From NCBI RefSeq assembly GCF_902826655.1, contig NZ_CADEFR010000008.1:1-64000 (forward strand): DNA of 64,000 bases, read 5' to 3'. The notes below the pieces were generated by a model, which searched no databases, was not told the DNA's origin, and saw nothing but the letters and a program-made list of their open reading frames with translations. The first letter of the stretch is position 1; every line of letters starts with the position of its first letter. The DNA comes from an uncultured Methylibium sp. GTDB taxonomy: Bacteria; Pseudomonadota; Gammaproteobacteria; Burkholderiales; Burkholderiaceae_C. Below, in pieces: positions 15,168-52,337 of the stretch. The position numbers were made by a program, and so were the translations under genes.

Positions 15168-16001
15168 ATGGCCAAGCTCTTCTCCGTCGCCTCGTGGAAT
15201 GTCGAGCACTTCAAGGACGACCTCTCGCGCGTCGGTCGCGTCGTGCAGTTCGTGTCCGACCAGCGGCCCGACGTGTTCGGGCTGTACGAGGTCGAAGGCG
15301 CCGCGATCTTCGACGAGCTGGTCGCGCGCATGCCCGACTACAGCTTCCAGATCACCGAAGGCCTGCAGACGCAGGAGATCCTGATCGGCGTGCGCCGCAC
15401 GCTGACCGCCTTCATCACCCAGCGCACCGAATTCCGGTCCGGCACCACCCACATGCGGCCGGGCCAGCTGGTGACCGTGGTGAAGGGCGGCGTCAACTAC
15501 GCGCTGCTCTTCCTGCACCTGGCCAGCAGCACCGATCCGCGCGGCATGGGCCTGCGCGACGACATGCTCGAGCGCGCGCTCGAGTTCCGCCGCACGCTCG
15601 ACAAGGCCGAGGGCGGGCCGGGCCAGGCGCGCTACGTCTTCCTCGGCGACCTCAACACCATGGGCCTGAAGTACCCCTTCGACCGCTCGATCGACGCCGC
15701 CACCGAGCTGCGCAAGTGGGACCGCGAGGCCGCGCGCGTCAAGTTCGGCATGCGCCGCCTGGCCAAGACCCACGACGCGACCTGGTTCAACGGCAGCAAC
15801 TCCTCGCTGCCGCCGTCCAACCTGGACCATGTCTTCGCCAGCACCAACCTCACGTTCAAGACCTTCGTGCGTCCGGACGACGGGCAGCCTGCCGAAGTCG
15901 CGGTGCGTGGCTGGGTCGACGAGCCCACCGATGCGAAGAAGGATGCGTGGATCGGGCAGTTCTCCGATCACTCCTTGCTCTACTTCGAGGTGCACGGCTG
16001 A
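15168..16001 (+). CDS. Endonuclease/exonuclease/phosphatase (EEP) family protein
   Basis: 277 residues with all landmarks of the EEP fold: WNVEHF near the start (Asn), the metal-binding Glu in LYEVEG, the GDLN motif (about 160) and the final SDHSLL (Asp-His). Members cut phosphodiesters or phosphomonoesters using Mg2+. There is no signal peptide, so it acts in the cytoplasm. The substrate cannot be inferred. Its 3' end faces priA across a 191-base convergent gap that holds repeat copy A. Confidence 0.88.
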   Translation: MAKLFSVASWNVEHFKDDLSRVGRVVQFVSDQRPDVFGLYEVEGAAIFDELVARMPDYSFQITEGLQTQEILIGVRRTLTAFITQRTEFRSGTTHMRPGQLVTVVKGGVNYALLFLHLASSTDPRGMGLRDDMLERALEFRRTLDKAEGGPGQARYVFLGDLNTMGLKYPFDRSIDAATELRKWDREAARVKFGMRRLAKTHDATWFNGSNSSLPPSNLDHVFASTNLTFKTFVRPDDGQPAEVAVRGWVDEPTDAKKDAWIGQFSDHSLLYFEVHG

Positions 16002-16061
16002 TTCATTTGAGCGGGCAGCGACTTGGCTGTCGACGGCCGACAGAATCAGTCGCTGGTGAGC

Positions 16062-16161
16062 CGAGGGCGATGGGCGACCGGCGCAGTGAAGTAAAGGAGG
16101 AGACGCGAGCGTTCAGCAAGCGTCGGGGGACATGAACGGAGCCGGTCGCGCGTCGGCCTCG
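16062..16161 (+). repeat. Structured dispersed element, copy A
   Basis: Outer arms 16062-16082 and 16141-16161 pair over 21 positions with two mismatches and one G-U. Inside lie a 20-base conserved core (16083-16102, with GAAGTAAAGGAGGAG), a variable hairpin ACGC...GCGT (16103-16123) and a 17-base conserved core (16124-16140, GGGGGACATGAACGGA). The copies at 50457-50566 (minus) and 50615-50716 have the same plan. It sits between the convergent EEP and priA genes. The compensating base changes suggest it works as RNA; the function is unknown. Confidence 0.8.
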
Positions 16162-16192
16162 TTCCGCGCGAGGCGAGCATGACCAAACGAGT

Positions 16193-18313
16193 TCATATTG
16201 CCAACGGATCCACATCCACCGCCCAGCGCAACACGCCCTTGCTCTCGGGCCGGCGCTCCTGCAGCACCGCATGCCAGGCCGCCAGAAAGCGCTGCAGCGC
16301 CGGCCGCGAGGCGGACTCCAGCAGCATCTGCGCGCGCTCGACGTCGGCCACGCGCTGCACCGACAGCGGCACCGGCGGGTAGATCGTCACCTGTTCCTGC
16401 GCGGCCAGCGCTTGAGCCGCGTCGGCCACCGCCTGCAGCCAGGCCTGCGCCACCGGCTGGCTGCGTGCGTCGGCGCGCAGCAGCGCCAGGTGGGCGTGCG
16501 GCGGCAGGCCGGCGCTGCGGCGCTCGTCGATCTGAGTCTGCGCGAAGCTCACGTAGTCGTGCGCGCGCAGCGCCGCGTACAGCGCGTGCTGCGGGTGCCA
16601 GGTCTGCACCCACATCTCGGCGCCGGCTGCCTGCTGCGCGTCGCGCCCGGCCCGGCCCGCCGCCTGCATCAGCAGCGCGAACAGGCGCTCGGGGCCGCGG
16701 AAGTCGCTGCTGAAGAGTGCCGCGTCCGGGTTGATCGCCGCCACCAGCGTGACGCGCCGGAAGTCGTGGCCCTTGGCGATCATCTGCGTGCCGACCAGCA
16801 CGTCGACCTCGCCGGCGTGCATGCGCGCCAGCTCGGCCTCCAGCGCGCCGCTGCGCCGCGTGGTGTCGGCATCGATGCGCGCCACGCGCGCGCCGGGCAG
16901 CGCGCTCGCGAGCTGCTCCTCCAGCCGCTCGGTGCCGCGGCCCAGCGGCTGGATGTCGGGGTTGCCGCAGCTCGGGCAGGCGCGCGGCACGCGCTCGCTG
17001 AACCCGCAGTGGTGGCAGCGCAGCGTGCGGTCGACCTTGTGGAAGACGCGCCAGGCGCTGCAGTGCGGGCAGTCGCTCTTCCAGCTGCACTCGGTGCAAT
17101 GCAGCACCGGCGCGTAGCCGCGTCGGTTGAGGAAGACCAGGCTCTGCTCGCCGCGCGCCAGCCGCTGCTGCAGCGCCGCCAGCAGCGGTGCGGCGAGCGG
17201 GGTGACGCGCTGCTGCTCGCGCGGGATGCGGCTCATGTCGACGAGCCGCACCGCCGGCAGCGCGCCGCCGCCGATGCGCGCGTGCAGGCTCAGCCGCCGG
17301 TAGCGCCCGGCACCGCCGTCGGCCGCCGGCTGCGCGTTGTGCCAGGTCTCCAGCGAGGGCGTGGCCGACCCCAGCAGCACCGGCACGCCCTCGAGGCGGC
17401 CGCGCACCACCGCCAGGTCGCGCGCCGAGTAACGCGCGCCTTCCTGCTGCTTGTAGGACGGGTCGTGCTCCTCGTCGACGACGATCAGCCCGCAGCGCGG
17501 CAGCGGCGCGAACACCGCCATGCGCGTGCCCAGCACGAGGTCGGCCTCGCCCAGCAGCGCCAGCAGCCAGTGCTGCAGGCGCCGCGCCGGCGTCAGGCCG
17601 CTGTGCAGCGACACCACGCGGCGGCCCGGAAAGCGCTCGATGAAGCGCGCCTCGAGCTGCGGCGTGAGGTTGATCTCGGGCACCAGCACCAGCGCCTGCC
17701 GGCCGGCCGCGACGACGCGCTCGGCCTCGCGCAGGTAGACCTCGGTCTTGCCGCTGCCGGTGCTGCCGTGCAACAGGGTCACGCCCGGCTCGGCCTGGGT
17801 CGCCAGCGCCTGCAGCGCCGCGGCCTGCTCGGCGCTGGGTTCGGGCAGGGCCGGCGGCTCGCCGCCGGGCGTGACGAGCCGCGCCCGCAGCCGCGCCAGA
17901 CGCCGCGCCAGCTGCACGCCGCTCAGCTTGCGCAGCTCGGGCGGCAGCACCGCCAGCGCCAGTTCGCCGACGCTGCGCTGGTAGTAGCCGGCCGCAAAGG
18001 CCACCAGTTCGCACCACGCGGCGGGCAGCGGCGGCAGCGCGTCGAAGACGTCGATCAGCTCGCGCAGTGCCCCGGGCTCGGGCGCCGCGGCGTCGCTCGC
18101 GGCCGGCTGCGGCCACACCACGCCCAGCACCTCGCGCCGGCCCAGCGGCGCGCGCACCAGCGTTCCCGGCGCGAGCGGGCGCTTACCGAGGTAGTCCAGC
18201 GCGCCCTGCAATCCGCTGTGCTGGGGCGTCGCGACGGCGACCGCGACGCGCTGCAGCGGGCCGTCATCGGCCGCCGGCGGCGCGACGGGAAGGGGGGGAG
18301 TCGACTTGCCCAA
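16193..18313 (-). CDS. priA: Primosomal helicase PriA
   Basis: 706 residues. A 3'-to-5' DNA helicase that restarts stalled replication forks by loading DnaB. An N-terminal 3'-DNA-binding domain (about 20-120) precedes the helicase with Walker A HGSTGSGKTEVYL and Walker B VVDEEHDPSYK. The two-zinc cluster inserted in the helicase is complete: CTECSWKSDCPHC followed by CHHCGF and CPSCGN. The GTQMIAKGHDF helicase motif and the QAAGRAGR motif are also present. The gene lies downstream of hemE on the same strand, separated by 343 bases with DnaA-box-like words. Confidence 0.97.
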   Translation of the reverse strand: MGKSTPPLPVAPPAADDGPLQRVAVAVATPQHSGLQGALDYLGKRPLAPGTLVRAPLGRREVLGVVWPQPAASDAAAPEPGALRELIDVFDALPPLPAAWCELVAFAAGYYQRSVGELALAVLPPELRKLSGVQLARRLARLRARLVTPGGEPPALPEPSAEQAAALQALATQAEPGVTLLHGSTGSGKTEVYLREAERVVAAGRQALVLVPEINLTPQLEARFIERFPGRRVVSLHSGLTPARRLQHWLLALLGEADLVLGTRMAVFAPLPRCGLIVVDEEHDPSYKQQEGARYSARDLAVVRGRLEGVPVLLGSATPSLETWHNAQPAADGGAGRYRRLSLHARIGGGALPAVRLVDMSRIPREQQRVTPLAAPLLAALQQRLARGEQSLVFLNRRGYAPVLHCTECSWKSDCPHCSAWRVFHKVDRTLRCHHCGFSERVPRACPSCGNPDIQPLGRGTERLEEQLASALPGARVARIDADTTRRSGALEAELARMHAGEVDVLVGTQMIAKGHDFRRVTLVAAINPDAALFSSDFRGPERLFALLMQAAGRAGRDAQQAAGAEMWVQTWHPQHALYAALRAHDYVSFAQTQIDERRSAGLPPHAHLALLRADARSQPVAQAWLQAVADAAQALAAQEQVTIYPPVPLSVQRVADVERAQMLLESASRPALQRFLAAWHAVLQERRPESKGVLRWAVDVDPLAI

Positions 18314-49134: not shown

Positions 49135-49698
49135 ATGCCCAGCCCGACGAGCACTTCCCCCGATGGCTTCGACTACGAGTCGGCGCTCGAGGCCTGCGCG
49201 CGCGGCGAGCGCTACGCGCTGCGCGCCCTCTACGAGCGCGAGTCGCGCTGGCTGCTGGGCGTGGCGCAGCGCATCGTGCGCGACCGCGACACCGCGCACG
49301 ACGTGCTGCAGGAGGCCTTCCTGCAGGTCTGGCAGCGCGCATCGACCTACCAGCGCGCGCTGGGCTCGGGGCGCGGCTGGATCTACACCGTGGTGCGTCA
49401 CCGCGCGCTGGACGAGGCGCGCCGCGTGCAGCGCGAGATGCCGGCCGGCGACGACCTCGAGGCCGTCGCCGATGCGCACGCCGCGCTCGAGCCCGCGCCC
49501 GACCTGCCGCACGCCGACGCCGCGGCGCTGGACCGCTGCCTGTCCGCACTGGAGGAGCGCAAGCGCGACTGCATCGTGCGCGCCTTCGTCGAGGGCTACA
49601 CGCACGAGCAGATCGCTCGCGAGATCGCCACGCCGGTCGGCACCGTCAAGTCGTGGATCCGCCGCGGGCTGCTGTCGCTGAAGGAGTGCCTGTCGTGA
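49135..49698 (+). CDS. ECF sigma-70 family factor
   Basis: 187 residues from ATG 49135; an earlier frame start (49063) gives a tail with no homology. Region 2 has AHDVLQEAFLQVWQRAS and the RGWIYTVVRHRALDEAR helix; region 4 has EQIAREIATPVGTVKSWIRRGLLSLKECL. It recruits RNA polymerase to a small regulon, perhaps including its own operon and the DUF4394 gene. It overlaps the anti-sigma gene by four bases, so the pair is coupled. Confidence 0.93.
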   Translation: MPSPTSTSPDGFDYESALEACARGERYALRALYERESRWLLGVAQRIVRDRDTAHDVLQEAFLQVWQRASTYQRALGSGRGWIYTVVRHRALDEARRVQREMPAGDDLEAVADAHAALEPAPDLPHADAAALDRCLSALEERKRDCIVRAFVEGYTHEQIAREIATPVGTVKSWIRRGLLSLKECLS

Positions 49699-50429
49699 GC
49701 CTCGATCAGGATCCGCAGGAACGCAGCGCCACCGCCGGCGAGTACGTGCTCGGCACGCTCGATGCCGCGACGCGCGCCGAGGTCGATCGGGCCCTGCCTG
49801 CCGACGCGGCGCTGCAGGCCGAGGTCTACCGCTGGCAGGACCGCCTGCTCGGCCTGACGCGCCGCGTCGCGCCGGCCGAGCCCGACGCCGGCCTGTGGCC
49901 CAAGATCGCCGCACGGCTGGGCGCCGCGCCCGCGGCACGACCGGCCGCCGCGCCCGCCGCCGCCAACGACCCGCTGTGGCAGCGCCTGCGCCGCTGGCAG
50001 CTCACCGGCGGCCTGGCGATCGCGGCTTCGATGGTGCTGGCCACGCTGCTGGTGCTGCGCGCGCCGACCGCGGTCGATGCGCCGGTGCGCTACCTCGCGG
50101 TGCTGCAGGCGCCCGACAACCAGACCGCCGGCTGGGTCGTCGAGATCACCGCCGGCGACAAGCTGCGCCTGGTGCCGGTGGCGGCGGTCGCGGGGCAGCC
50201 GGTGCCCGCCGGCAAGACGCTGCAGTTCTGGACCAAGCCCGAAGGCGCGGCCGGCCCGACCTCGCTGGGCCTGGTGCGCGCCGGCCAGACCGTCGAGCTG
50301 CCGGTCGGCCAGCTGCCGGCGGTCGAGGCCAGGACGCTCTTCGAGCTGACCCTCGAACCCGAAGGCGGCTCGACGATCGGACGGCCGACGGGGCCGATCC
50401 TGTACGTGGGGCGCACCGTCAAGCTCTGA
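49695..50429 (+). CDS. Anti-sigma factor (RskA-like)
   Basis: 244 residues from a GTG in the sigma stop. The cytoplasmic N-terminus (about 1-90) has the AGEYVLGTLDAATRAEVDR helix of zinc-less anti-sigma domains. One membrane helix (about 105-122) leads to an RskA C-terminal domain (about 130-244; YLAVLQAPDNQTAGWVVEI and TLQFWTKPEG). It holds the ECF factor inactive at the membrane until an envelope signal releases it. Confidence 0.92.
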   Translation: MSLDQDPQERSATAGEYVLGTLDAATRAEVDRALPADAALQAEVYRWQDRLLGLTRRVAPAEPDAGLWPKIAARLGAAPAARPAAAPAAANDPLWQRLRRWQLTGGLAIAASMVLATLLVLRAPTAVDAPVRYLAVLQAPDNQTAGWVVEITAGDKLRLVPVAAVAGQPVPAGKTLQFWTKPEGAAGPTSLGLVRAGQTVELPVGQLPAVEARTLFELTLEPEGGSTIGRPTGPILYVGRTVKL

Positions 50430-50456
50430 TTCACCTTGCTTGCTTGCGCGGCGCGG

Positions 50457-50566
50457 GCAGCGAAACCGACTGGGGCGCTGTACTGCGCTCATGTCCCCCG
50501 GGGCGGGCGATGCCCGTCCCTCCTCCTTTACTTCGCTCCGTACAACGCCCCAGCCGGCTTCGCTGC
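50457..50566 (-). repeat. Structured dispersed element, copy C
   Basis: On the minus strand, 27-base outer arms (50566-50540 and 50483-50457) pair along their full length: 24 Watson-Crick pairs and three G-U or U-G. The left core is 50539-50520 (ggagc then GAAGTAAAGGAGGAG) and the right core 50500-50484 (CGGGGGACATGAGCGCA). The inner hairpin has CGGGC, loop ATC, GCCCG. The arm sequences are unrelated to copies A and B; core changes compensate each other (see findings). Confidence 0.82.
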
Positions 50567-50614
50567 TGGCATCGCTCTGGCCGCTCGGAGGCCTGCAATG
50601 CTGCGGCGGTGGAA

Positions 50615-50716
50615 GGTCGAGGGCAGTGGGTGACCGGCGCAGTGAAGTAAAGGAGGAGGCCGGGCGCAGCCCGGTCGGAGGACATGAACGGAGCCGGTCA
50701 CCCGCTGTCCTCGACC
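50615..50716 (+). repeat. Structured dispersed element, copy B
   Basis: Outer arms 50615-50638 and 50693-50716 form 24 pairs: 22 Watson-Crick and two wobble. Left core 50639-50658 is identical to copy A; the right core 50676-50692 differs from copy A by one base (GGAGG for GGGGG). The inner hairpin GCCGGGC, loop GCA, GCCCGGT replaces the one in copy A. Lies upstream (in plus coordinates) of the convergent cytochrome c gene end. Confidence 0.85.
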
Positions 50717-50749
50717 CGCGCGACCGACGTCACACAGTAGCGAGGAGGC

Positions 50750-51082
50750 TCAAGGCTCCTTCACTTCGACCTTCAACGACGCATACCAGGCCGCCAGCGC
50801 CGCGATGTCGGCATCGCTCAGGTACTGGGCGACGACGTTCATCACCGGGTGCTGGCGCGCACCGCTGCGGTAGGCCTTGAGCTGGGCCTCGACGTAGATC
50901 GCTGGTTGTCCGGCGAGGTTCGGCGCGTCCGGCAACGTCGCCAGGCCCAGCCGGCCATGGCAGGCGGAGCAGGCGGCCGACTTGGTACGGCCCGCTTCGT
51001 TGGCCTGGGCCGCTGGTACCGCGGCGCTGATCAACAGCGCCGCGATCCAGCACCAGGTCCTAGCGCTTCGCGTCGCCCACAT
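50750..51082 (-). CDS. Periplasmic cytochrome c, class I
   Basis: 110 residues from ATG 51082 with a signal peptide (TWCWIAALLISAAVPAAQA). The heme motif is CSACH, and the axial Met is likely in HPVMNVVAQYLSDADIAALAAWYAS. Single-heme, cytochrome c4/c553 type. Its start overlaps the 3' end of the sugar dehydrogenase gene by 23 bases, so the two are coupled; it probably accepts electrons from that enzyme. Confidence 0.9.
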   Translation of the reverse strand: MWATRSARTWCWIAALLISAAVPAAQANEAGRTKSAACSACHGRLGLATLPDAPNLAGQPAIYVEAQLKAYRSGARQHPVMNVVAQYLSDADIAALAAWYASLKVEVKEP

Positions 51083-52337
51083 AGCTGATGCGGTAGATCG
51101 CGCCGACGTAGTCATCGGAGACGAGCAGCGAGCCGTCCTTCATCGTCGCCACGTCGACCGGGCGGCCGCGGAAGGTGCCGGTGTTCTCGTCGAGCCAGCC
51201 GCTCGCGAAGACCTCGGTCTTGTCGGCCGTGCCGTCGGCCTTGAGCGAGGTGAACAGCACCTGCGCGCCGTTGGGCTTGGTGCGGTTCCACGAGCCGTGC
51301 TGCGCGCTGAAGAAGCCGCCCTGGTACTTGGCCGGGAAGGACTTGCCGGTGTAGAAGGCCATGCCCAGGTCGGCCGCATGCGCTTCGGTCAGCACCTGGG
51401 CCGCGGTCACGTTGGTCGGCAGCGGGTCCTTGTCGTAGCCGTGGTCGGTGATGCGGGTCTTGCCCTGGATCCACGGGTAGCCGAAGAACTGGCCCGCCTT
51501 GGTGATGCGGTTGATCTCGCCGTTGGGGATGTCGTCGCCCATGCCGTCGGTCTGGTTGTCGGTGAACCAGAGCGTGCCGTCCTTGGGGTTGAAGTCGTGG
51601 CCGACCGAGTTGCGGATGCCGGTGGCGTAGACCTCGCGCTTGCTGCCGTCGAAGGCGTTCATGCGCACCATGCCGCCGATGCCGACCTCGTTGAAGATCT
51701 TGAGCTTGTCGCGCGGCTGCACGTTGAAGGGCTGGCCCAGCGAGATGTAGACCATGCCGTCCGGCCCGATCTTGCAGACCCGCGCGCCGTGGTTGAAGGA
51801 CTCTTCCTCCACCGGGATCAGCTTGCCCTGCGGCACGACCTCGATCACCGCGACGTCCGGGCCTTCGTAGAAGAACTCGGCGGCGGGGAAGTTGAGCACG
51901 CGGTTGTGCTCGGCCACCAGCAGGAAGCCGTCCTTGGTCCAGCACACGCCGTTGGGCACCTTGAAGTTGAGGCTGGGCGCGAAGGCCTTGACCTCGTCGG
52001 CCTCGCCGTCGGAGTTGCGGTCGGTCACGGCCCACACCGTGGTCTTGCGGGTGCCGACGAAGAGCATGTTGGTGCTGGGCGCCACGGCCATGTGGCGCGC
52101 GTCGGGCACCACCGCGAACAGGTCGATGCGAAAGCCCGGCGGCAGCTTCACGCGCTCGAGGTTCCTGCGGATCGCGTCGGCGTTCTTGCCGGTCTGCGGC
52201 ACCGGCGGGATGTTGAGGTCCACGCCGGACACCTTGAACTGCTTGAGCTTCTCGATGTTCTGCTGGGCCAGCGCGGGTCCGGCGGACAGCAGGGCGGCCG
52301 CGACGGCCGTCAGCGTGAGGCGGGCGAAGGGATGCAT
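51060..52337 (-). CDS. PQQ-type sugar/sorbosone dehydrogenase family protein
   Basis: 425 residues with a signal peptide cut after ALA (about 25). It is a six-bladed propeller related to soluble glucose dehydrogenase and L-sorbosone dehydrogenase: VPNGVCWTKDGFLLVAEHNRV, the FNHGARVCKIGPDGMVYISLG blade, YATGIRNSVGHDFNP (Arg-Asn in the cofactor site), TDNQTDGMGDDIPNGEIN and HGSWNRTKPNG. It oxidises an aldose or similar substrate in the periplasm. PQQ synthesis genes are not in the window. The GGAGACCC upstream is the ribosome binding site. Confidence 0.9.
   Translation of the reverse strand: MHPFARLTLTAVAAALLSAGPALAQQNIEKLKQFKVSGVDLNIPPVPQTGKNADAIRRNLERVKLPPGFRIDLFAVVPDARHMAVAPSTNMLFVGTRKTTVWAVTDRNSDGEADEVKAFAPSLNFKVPNGVCWTKDGFLLVAEHNRVLNFPAAEFFYEGPDVAVIEVVPQGKLIPVEEESFNHGARVCKIGPDGMVYISLGQPFNVQPRDKLKIFNEVGIGGMVRMNAFDGSKREVYATGIRNSVGHDFNPKDGTLWFTDNQTDGMGDDIPNGEINRITKAGQFFGYPWIQGKTRITDHGYDKDPLPTNVTAAQVLTEAHAADLGMAFYTGKSFPAKYQGGFFSAQHGSWNRTKPNGAQVLFTSLKADGTADKTEVFASGWLDENTGTFRGRPVDVATMKDGSLLVSDDYVGAIYRISYVGDAKR

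Follow-up and report, generated by a model that had tools for sequence, protein, structure and literature searches.

REP sequences are typically located near the 3' ends of genes, and attC sites are characterized by R and L boxes of the GTTRRRY type. REPs are described as dispersed palindromes of 20-40 bp with a tetranucleotide tag, often arranged as inverted dimers and often as heterodimers (PMC3733652), and attC sites as strand-specific folded sites, poor in sequence and rich in structure, with a variable terminal structure (PMC8946536). A further study (PMC2864571) describes the STAXI motif, for which a possible single-stranded DNA (ssDNA) nature was weighed by loop type (UUCG loops speaking for RNA), and Burkholderiales-1, a motif of the Burkholderiales scored "?" as RNA and without an Rfam accession.

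The window studied here (i.e., the whole stretch of 64,000 nucleotides that was analysed) contains three copies of an element that shares features with some of these systems. The three copies are members of a large family of hairpin elements (modules) of ~105 bases, which are intergenic and usually occur in back-to-back pairs. Like REPs, REPINs and BIMEs, the modules are intergenic palindromes found in inverted dimers (88 -+ pairs). Unlike REPs with GTAG/CGTC tags, they are ~105 bases long, have a 24-bp stem of free sequence and a core of ~30 bases, and carry no tag beside the stem. They resemble attC in having a strand-specific fold with a variable tip, but their conserved bases lie in an internal loop rather than in crossover boxes, the modules stand in inverted pairs, and boxes of the GTTRRRY type are absent from the consensus of 49 copies. 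STAXI differs from the modules by its UUCG loops and its pseudoknot. The features of the window are as follows.

15168..16001, plus strand: gene upstream of module A, endonuclease/exonuclease/phosphatase family (PF03372, E 3.2e-11)
16059..16164, plus strand: module A, single copy between convergent genes (R1 match 16056-16168, 81.0 bits, E 1.6e-16)
16088..16102, plus strand: left core of module A, GAAGTAAAGGAGGAG (near-invariant columns in the 49-copy alignment)
16103..16123, plus strand: variable terminal hairpin P2 of module A, 21 bases
16124..16135, plus strand: right core of module A, CGGGGGACATGA (conserved in the 49-copy alignment)
16193..18313, minus strand: gene downstream of module A, PriA-like primosomal helicase (PF18074, PF17764, PF18319)
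49653..50429, plus strand: gene left of module C, anti-sigma-K factor RskA C-terminal domain (PF10099, E 8e-21)
50457..50566, minus strand: module C, left member of the C/B pair, 27-bp stem (R1 match 50456-50566, 108.2 bits, E 8.8e-23)
50520..50534, minus strand: left core of module C, conserved
50567..50614, no strand: spacer between modules C and B, whose 5' ends face each other
50615..50716, plus strand: module B, right member of the C/B pair, 24-bp stem (R1 match 50612-50720, 103.9 bits, E 8.6e-22)
50644..50658, plus strand: left core of module B, conserved
50750..51115, minus strand: gene right of module B, cytochrome c (PF00034, E 2.9e-7)

R1, a covariance model of 111 columns built from 49 copies, matched exactly three places in the window and gave no further match up to E 10; it thus returned all three copies where an earlier note on this DNA had placed them, and nothing else. 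The hairpin lengths given there (21, 17 and 19 bases in A, B and C) were reproduced, as were the outer arms of C, with 27 pairs (24 Watson-Crick and three G-U), and those of B, with 24 pairs (22 Watson-Crick and two G-U) and mismatches beyond. Two traits had gone unmentioned: the outer arms of A have four non-pairing positions among their 27, and C and B form a pair, as many other modules of the family do. The right core of B has GGAGG in place of GGGGG, and the RNA fold of module A has a z-score of -4.97. The 15-mer GAAGTAAAGGAGGAG is present three times in the window, against 1.5e-5 expected from base composition, and seven times in the whole genome, where its reversed control is absent. No empty orthologous sites for A or for the C/B pair were found in the genus, because the neighbouring genes differ.

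The family extends well beyond these three copies. In six genomes of the window's genus, R1 gave 91 matches at E 0.01 or better (13, 18, 20, 36, 1 and 3), and matches were present in 28 of the 100 genomes of a set of relatives, own genome included, under filters stricter than those of the genus set (28 versus 36 matches in genome G004). Five of 276 genomes drawn from the class contained matches, again with the own genome included; two of the five belong to another family (f51) and one, with a weak match (44 bits), to a third. A gapped core pattern was found in at least 120 stretches (loci L031-L150), and the record titles of the stretches listed name Rubrivivax, Hydrogenophaga, Variovorax, Rhodoferax, Sulfurisoma, Luteimonas, Lysobacter and Pseudoxanthomonas among others, genera of the Burkholderiales, Rhodocyclales and Xanthomonadales. 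The same pattern had no match in viral contigs and matched a single plasmid record, from Burkholderia anthina, in which the copy lies between annotated genes for a 2-hydroxymuconic semialdehyde dehydrogenase and an alpha/beta hydrolase. Family copies are not independent of one another. Shorter relatives of ~82 bases were also seen in -+ pairs at L324, L325 and L326 (G004:C124 and C128); they scored 40-51 bits with R1 and were missed by the module finder.

The earlier note could not name the family, and the comparison with Rfam gave no match at the gathering threshold in the window or in 12 other loci. Below threshold there was none around A, and around C/B three microRNA models appeared at E 0.75 or worse. 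Among the titles and abstract openings found on REPIN/Burkholderia, on Methylibium/Rubrivivax repeats, on Burkholderiales structured RNA and on Burkholderiales-1, none describes the element; core strings led only to PMC7722926, which is unrelated by its title, and the RepRanger paper (PMC12306157) names none of six taxa looked for. The family is apparently new to description, although it could conceivably be Burkholderiales-1 of Weinberg 2010. Its copies number in the hundreds, in bacteria of soil and water, and share a conserved covarying fold that is missing from Rfam.

Each module combines a 24-bp stem, free in its sequence, with a purine-rich core of ~30 bases that is nearly invariant and with a variable hairpin. 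Read 5' to 3', its plan is P1; G-N-A; G-Y-G-A-A-G-T-A-A-A-GG-N-GG-A-G; P2; C-GG-N-GG-A-C-A-T-G-A-R-C; G-N-A; P1'. In the finder set, the paired fraction of P1 was 0.82 to 0.98 at positions 1-23, then fell to 0.66 at position 24 and to 0.30-0.54 further out, and a similar drop in pairing past the end of P1 was present in copies picked by the core alone. None of the columns past the stem, up to 44 bases from the core, reached 60% conservation. Two-sided changes occurred in 24 of 24 P1 pairs and in seven of eight P2 pairs of alignment A1. The whole structure was paired in 94.8% of cells, compared with 64.4% after shuffling and at most 42.9% in slid versions, and the covariation score was 0.810, compared with 0.212 and at most 0.142, respectively. 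Arms, core and P2 all carry compensatory changes, which supports the earlier note's proposal of a real family. A weak CACC-N-GGTG mini-palindrome was also observed ahead of many stems, some 50 to 33 bases upstream of the core.

Within the core, two exchanges had been proposed, of which the inner one (U-A / C-G), at the -2/+1 positions, holds, with C-G in 120 and U-A in 23 of 158 modules, whereas pairing is incomplete in the other (C-G / G-C), with C-G in 77, G-C in 21, G-G in 15 and A-G in 12 of the same 158. The core pair A2-U6 is A-T in 136 of them and G-C in 16. Tandem G-A pairs in the core are plausible because an AAAT/ATTC subtype (12 of 158) has G-C/A-T (A-U in RNA) in place of the tandem G.A/A.G. 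Kink-turn RNAs have a three-base bulge beside the tandem G-A, and the likeness to a kink-turn drawn earlier is not supported, since the G-A pairs here sit in a symmetric stack, paired on both sides and with no such bulge. The two N of the GGNGG motifs are strongly linked (A,G 136; G,A 13; A,A 5; A,C 3; C,G 1; G,G 0; Fisher p 5.5e-14), which may reflect a swapping A.G pair or the avoidance of two five-G runs beside a two-tier quadruplex.

One of the two strands is the folded one, since G-T wobbles far outnumber A-C mismatches in the stem. Among 151 distinct copies picked by the core pattern alone, the first 22 stem positions held 267 G-T versus 24 A-C, a count independent of the finder, which scores G-T as paired and therefore favours wobble copies. 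The larger finder set gave 543 versus 32, and a set of 158 modules nonredundant in their arms gave 319 versus 24 (p 6e-67); the wobble table was limited to modules in which at least 16 of 22 positions pair, which removed 5 of 293 modules and 4 of the 158 arm-nonredundant ones. Together with the covariation, this asymmetry identifies the strand carrying GAAGTAAAGGAGGAG as the folded strand, in agreement with the first reading of the window. In members of pairs, the G-T to A-C ratio was 211:12 on the plus strand and 188:9 on the minus strand. The constraint on folding is therefore tied to the strand of the individual module and acts on the two strands of a pair simultaneously, a pattern that a replication-strand bias would not give. 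Such asymmetry would likewise not arise from a duplex site, which argues against a BIME-like element that the host would retain as a protein-binding site or for the topology of its DNA, and in which a GGGYG block of the stem would be a double-stranded site. This block, at P1 positions ~13-17 from the core, does consist mostly of G-C pairs of fixed sense, and the intergenic placement would fit as well; the patchy distribution (28 of 100 genomes) also counts against this explanation, which we consider improbable.

The modules fall into 162 distinct clusters, comprising 88 -+ pairs with the 5' ends facing, one +- pair, one triple and 72 singles. Only two clusters overlap a predicted gene (gene calls were made within this analysis, and the window genes next to copies have Pfam matches). 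Divergent gene junctions are avoided, with three of 160 clusters in such a position versus 73 of 305 junctions in a background set with a minimum length of 100 bp (p 1.3e-11), where cluster contexts and background come from overlapping, not identical, loci. Among 1075 predicted proteins of 155 loci, 23 gene groups recur in at least four loci; no recurrent neighbouring transposase was found among them, and, judged from the appearance of one sequence each, they resemble common genes of metabolism, transport and regulation. In four loci (L296, L297, L298 and L134), modules lie beside the same two genes, whose products resemble a semialdehyde dehydrogenase and a ring-cleavage dioxygenase (hpaE/hpaD-like), and other modules adjoin CoA-carboxylase genes.

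The family is a test case for structured RNA versus structured ssDNA, which covariation alone does not tell apart. The earlier note had taken the G-U tolerance and the paired core changes as an argument for RNA, but tolerance of G-T on one strand fits ssDNA equally. In the RNA explanation, modules would be transcribed from their own strand, from a weak promoter or by pervasive transcription, as a small RNA or as an element at the 3' end of an mRNA or between cistrons, and would be bound by an RNA-binding protein or have their 24-bp stem processed by RNase III. The covariation and the wobble asymmetry agree with it, as does the position of the modules 3' of genes, beside or between catabolic genes. 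Besides, the strand with the core is predicted to be more stable as RNA than the opposite strand (-54.5 versus -41.9 kcal/mol in A, -71.6 versus -58.7 in B and -75.4 versus -64.2 in C), but the DNA fold prediction gives the same strand preference. G-T wobbles in DNA are weaker than G-U wobbles in RNA, which counts against the ssDNA reading.

A fold serving read-through mRNA should vanish in modules that a neighbouring gene can read only in antisense. The asymmetry is unchanged in such modules, both in pairs (G-T:A-C 123:14 versus 262:20 in sense modules; Fisher p 0.34) and as singles (28:1 versus 93:6), which argues against read-through RNA. No sigma-70-like promoter was found in the two window regions scanned. 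An intrinsic terminator was also considered and rejected, as neither window region has a hairpin followed by a T run. The P2 loops of 158 modules were C(GNA)G in 86, GNRA in seven, UUCG in one and other types in 52, with no hairpin in 12, whereas 137 terminator-like hairpins of the same loci, chosen by a different stem rule, had no C(GNA)G, 14 GNRA and 10 UUCG loops. GNA loops are reported to form extraordinarily stable DNA minihairpins (Yoshizawa 1997, as cited in PMC6479982), although loop type is an indirect argument. Considering the asymmetry kept in antisense-only modules, the lack of a promoter in the scanned regions and the DNA-type GNA loops in place of GNRA or UUCG, the evidence leans away from an RNA gene and towards a REP-like repeat that folds as ssDNA, and we regard the RNA explanation as possible but rather doubtful.

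We therefore favour, with a probability of about 45%, a REPIN-like dispersed repeat of two inverted ~105-base modules that acts as folded ssDNA. The repeat unit would usually be formed by two inverted modules with facing 5' ends, and the folded strand would be exposed when the duplex opens during replication, repair or processing. Its near-invariant core, with the G-A and G-rich motifs, may be bound by a putative trans-acting enzyme that would move, copy or convert the elements, and the copies within a genome would swap core and terminal hairpin. If this holds, the Burkholderiales possess an enzyme that recognizes the folded strand, and cores continue to be swapped among the elements. No such enzyme was found among the neighbour groups present in at least four loci, which speaks against this proposal. 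Mobilization by RAYT/Y1 was rejected as a candidate, with a Y1 transposase in 19 of 28 module-bearing and 48 of 72 module-free genomes and no match in G001, G003, G004, G016 and G025, which carry 18-36 copies; unlike REPs and REPINs with RAYTs, the modules thus lack an association with Y1/RAYT genes.

The integron integrase was likewise rejected. It scored over the cut-off in 15 of the 28 genomes with modules and in 30 of the 72 that lack them (counts without a significance test), and in none of the high-copy genomes G004, G014, G025 and G049. This weighs against attC-like recombination sites, i.e., folded single strands whose variable tip would mark the ends of cassettes. The modules do share with attC a strand-specific imperfect palindrome with a variable tip (PMC8946536), and pairs bracket inserts of 2835, 2468, 779, 651 and 311 bp with GC contents of 0.53, 0.60, 0.57, 0.67 and 0.59, compared with 0.62, 0.67, 0.66, 0.70 and 0.69 for the whole loci. 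On the other hand, these five are the only inserts above 300 bp among the fetched loci, and the modules are inverted and not in direct arrays, so that an attC-like role appears unlikely. A further, rather tentative reading is a new class of strand-specific recognition site made of folded ssDNA in inverted pairs, with the core set between the stem and a GNA-capped hairpin, and handled by a putative enzyme, which would spread the pairs, convert cores between copies and at times bracket cargo. Here the G-A pairs of the core would stack, and GGNGG...GGNGG could form a two-tier quadruplex.

Most pairs in G003 and G001 are one X-Y composite, found at seven sites in G003 and four in G001, and similarity among the composites stops within ~10 bases of the stem ends; this dispersal supports the REPIN-like reading. 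Flanks common to a fetched G001 locus were found for eight of 10 G003 loci; the shared sites, of which five of eight site pairs were aligned, differ by the loss of parts of pairs and not by insertion, which does not favour a mobile repeat. In favour of it, the whole L242 composite is missing at the orthologous site in G001, where flanks 93-94% identical lie 15 bases apart, compared with 308 in L242. The element lies ~20 bases past the apparent end of a gene, and a 5-base ACCGC, read by eye, is possibly repeated on both sides; the difference could stem from insertion in one lineage or, as well, from clean loss in its counterpart. Of the L262 pair of G001, G003 keeps only the outer halves (L353, G003:C1 near 169971), which are joined to each other inside the P2 hairpins. 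In G049, L331 (G049:C8:57389-57582) resembles this derivative, with outer halves joined within the P2 hairpins. Fused-half derivatives in two genomes suggest breakage at the hairpin tips.

Orthologous copies are identical at 449 of 480 bases in the stem arms, 127 of 167 in the spacer and 195 of 258 in P2. The X arms and X P2 hairpins of orthologous sites are no more alike than those of non-orthologous sites (p 0.39 and 0.13, six site pairs), from which we infer that core and hairpin were exchanged between copies after the split, the alternative being rapid independent change of P2. The Y arms keep an orthology signal (p 0.0125, four site pairs), which speaks against free exchange in the REPIN-like reading; the Y P2 hairpins do not (p 0.32).

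Terminal inverted repeats with a target duplication would mark a MITE. Terminal repeats TSATACSGWYTTGC surround composites in G049. Long terminal repeats around composites are absent in the window's genus, where the one empty site has no more than a possible 5-bp repeat. In G049, five composites lie inside larger units, four of them with both terminal repeats and 343 to 356 bp long, and an 11-bp direct repeat flanks one of the four units with both ends found. The end pattern of TSATACSGWYTTGC occurs at 14 places in this genome, as read in short stretches (backward controls, 1 and 0), some of which may hold a gene. The moving unit of G049 seems to be the larger one with its own terminal repeats, which counts against the REPIN-like reading. 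A short unit, L343 (G049:C37:28931-29146), has similar terminal repeats and contains stem pieces only.

Several of the bracketed inserts contain genes. In L282:2173-5215 (G010:C40), two modules of the same subfamily bracket 2.8 kb of cargo-like DNA, low in GC (0.53), which encodes an ORC/AAA-ATPase-like product (PF24389) as well as a protein of 290 aa without a Pfam match. In Rubrivivax gelatinosus (L124:4698-7369), modules with identical P2 bracket 2.5 kb that include an Xre-like HTH gene, two proteins without a Pfam match and a second copy of the 3' end of a neighbouring gene. The pairs at L285:2573-3409, L283:2363-3347 and L284:2290-2808 hold the inserts of 651, 779 and 311 bp, respectively, and the one in L285 carries a gene for a DUF2306 membrane protein.
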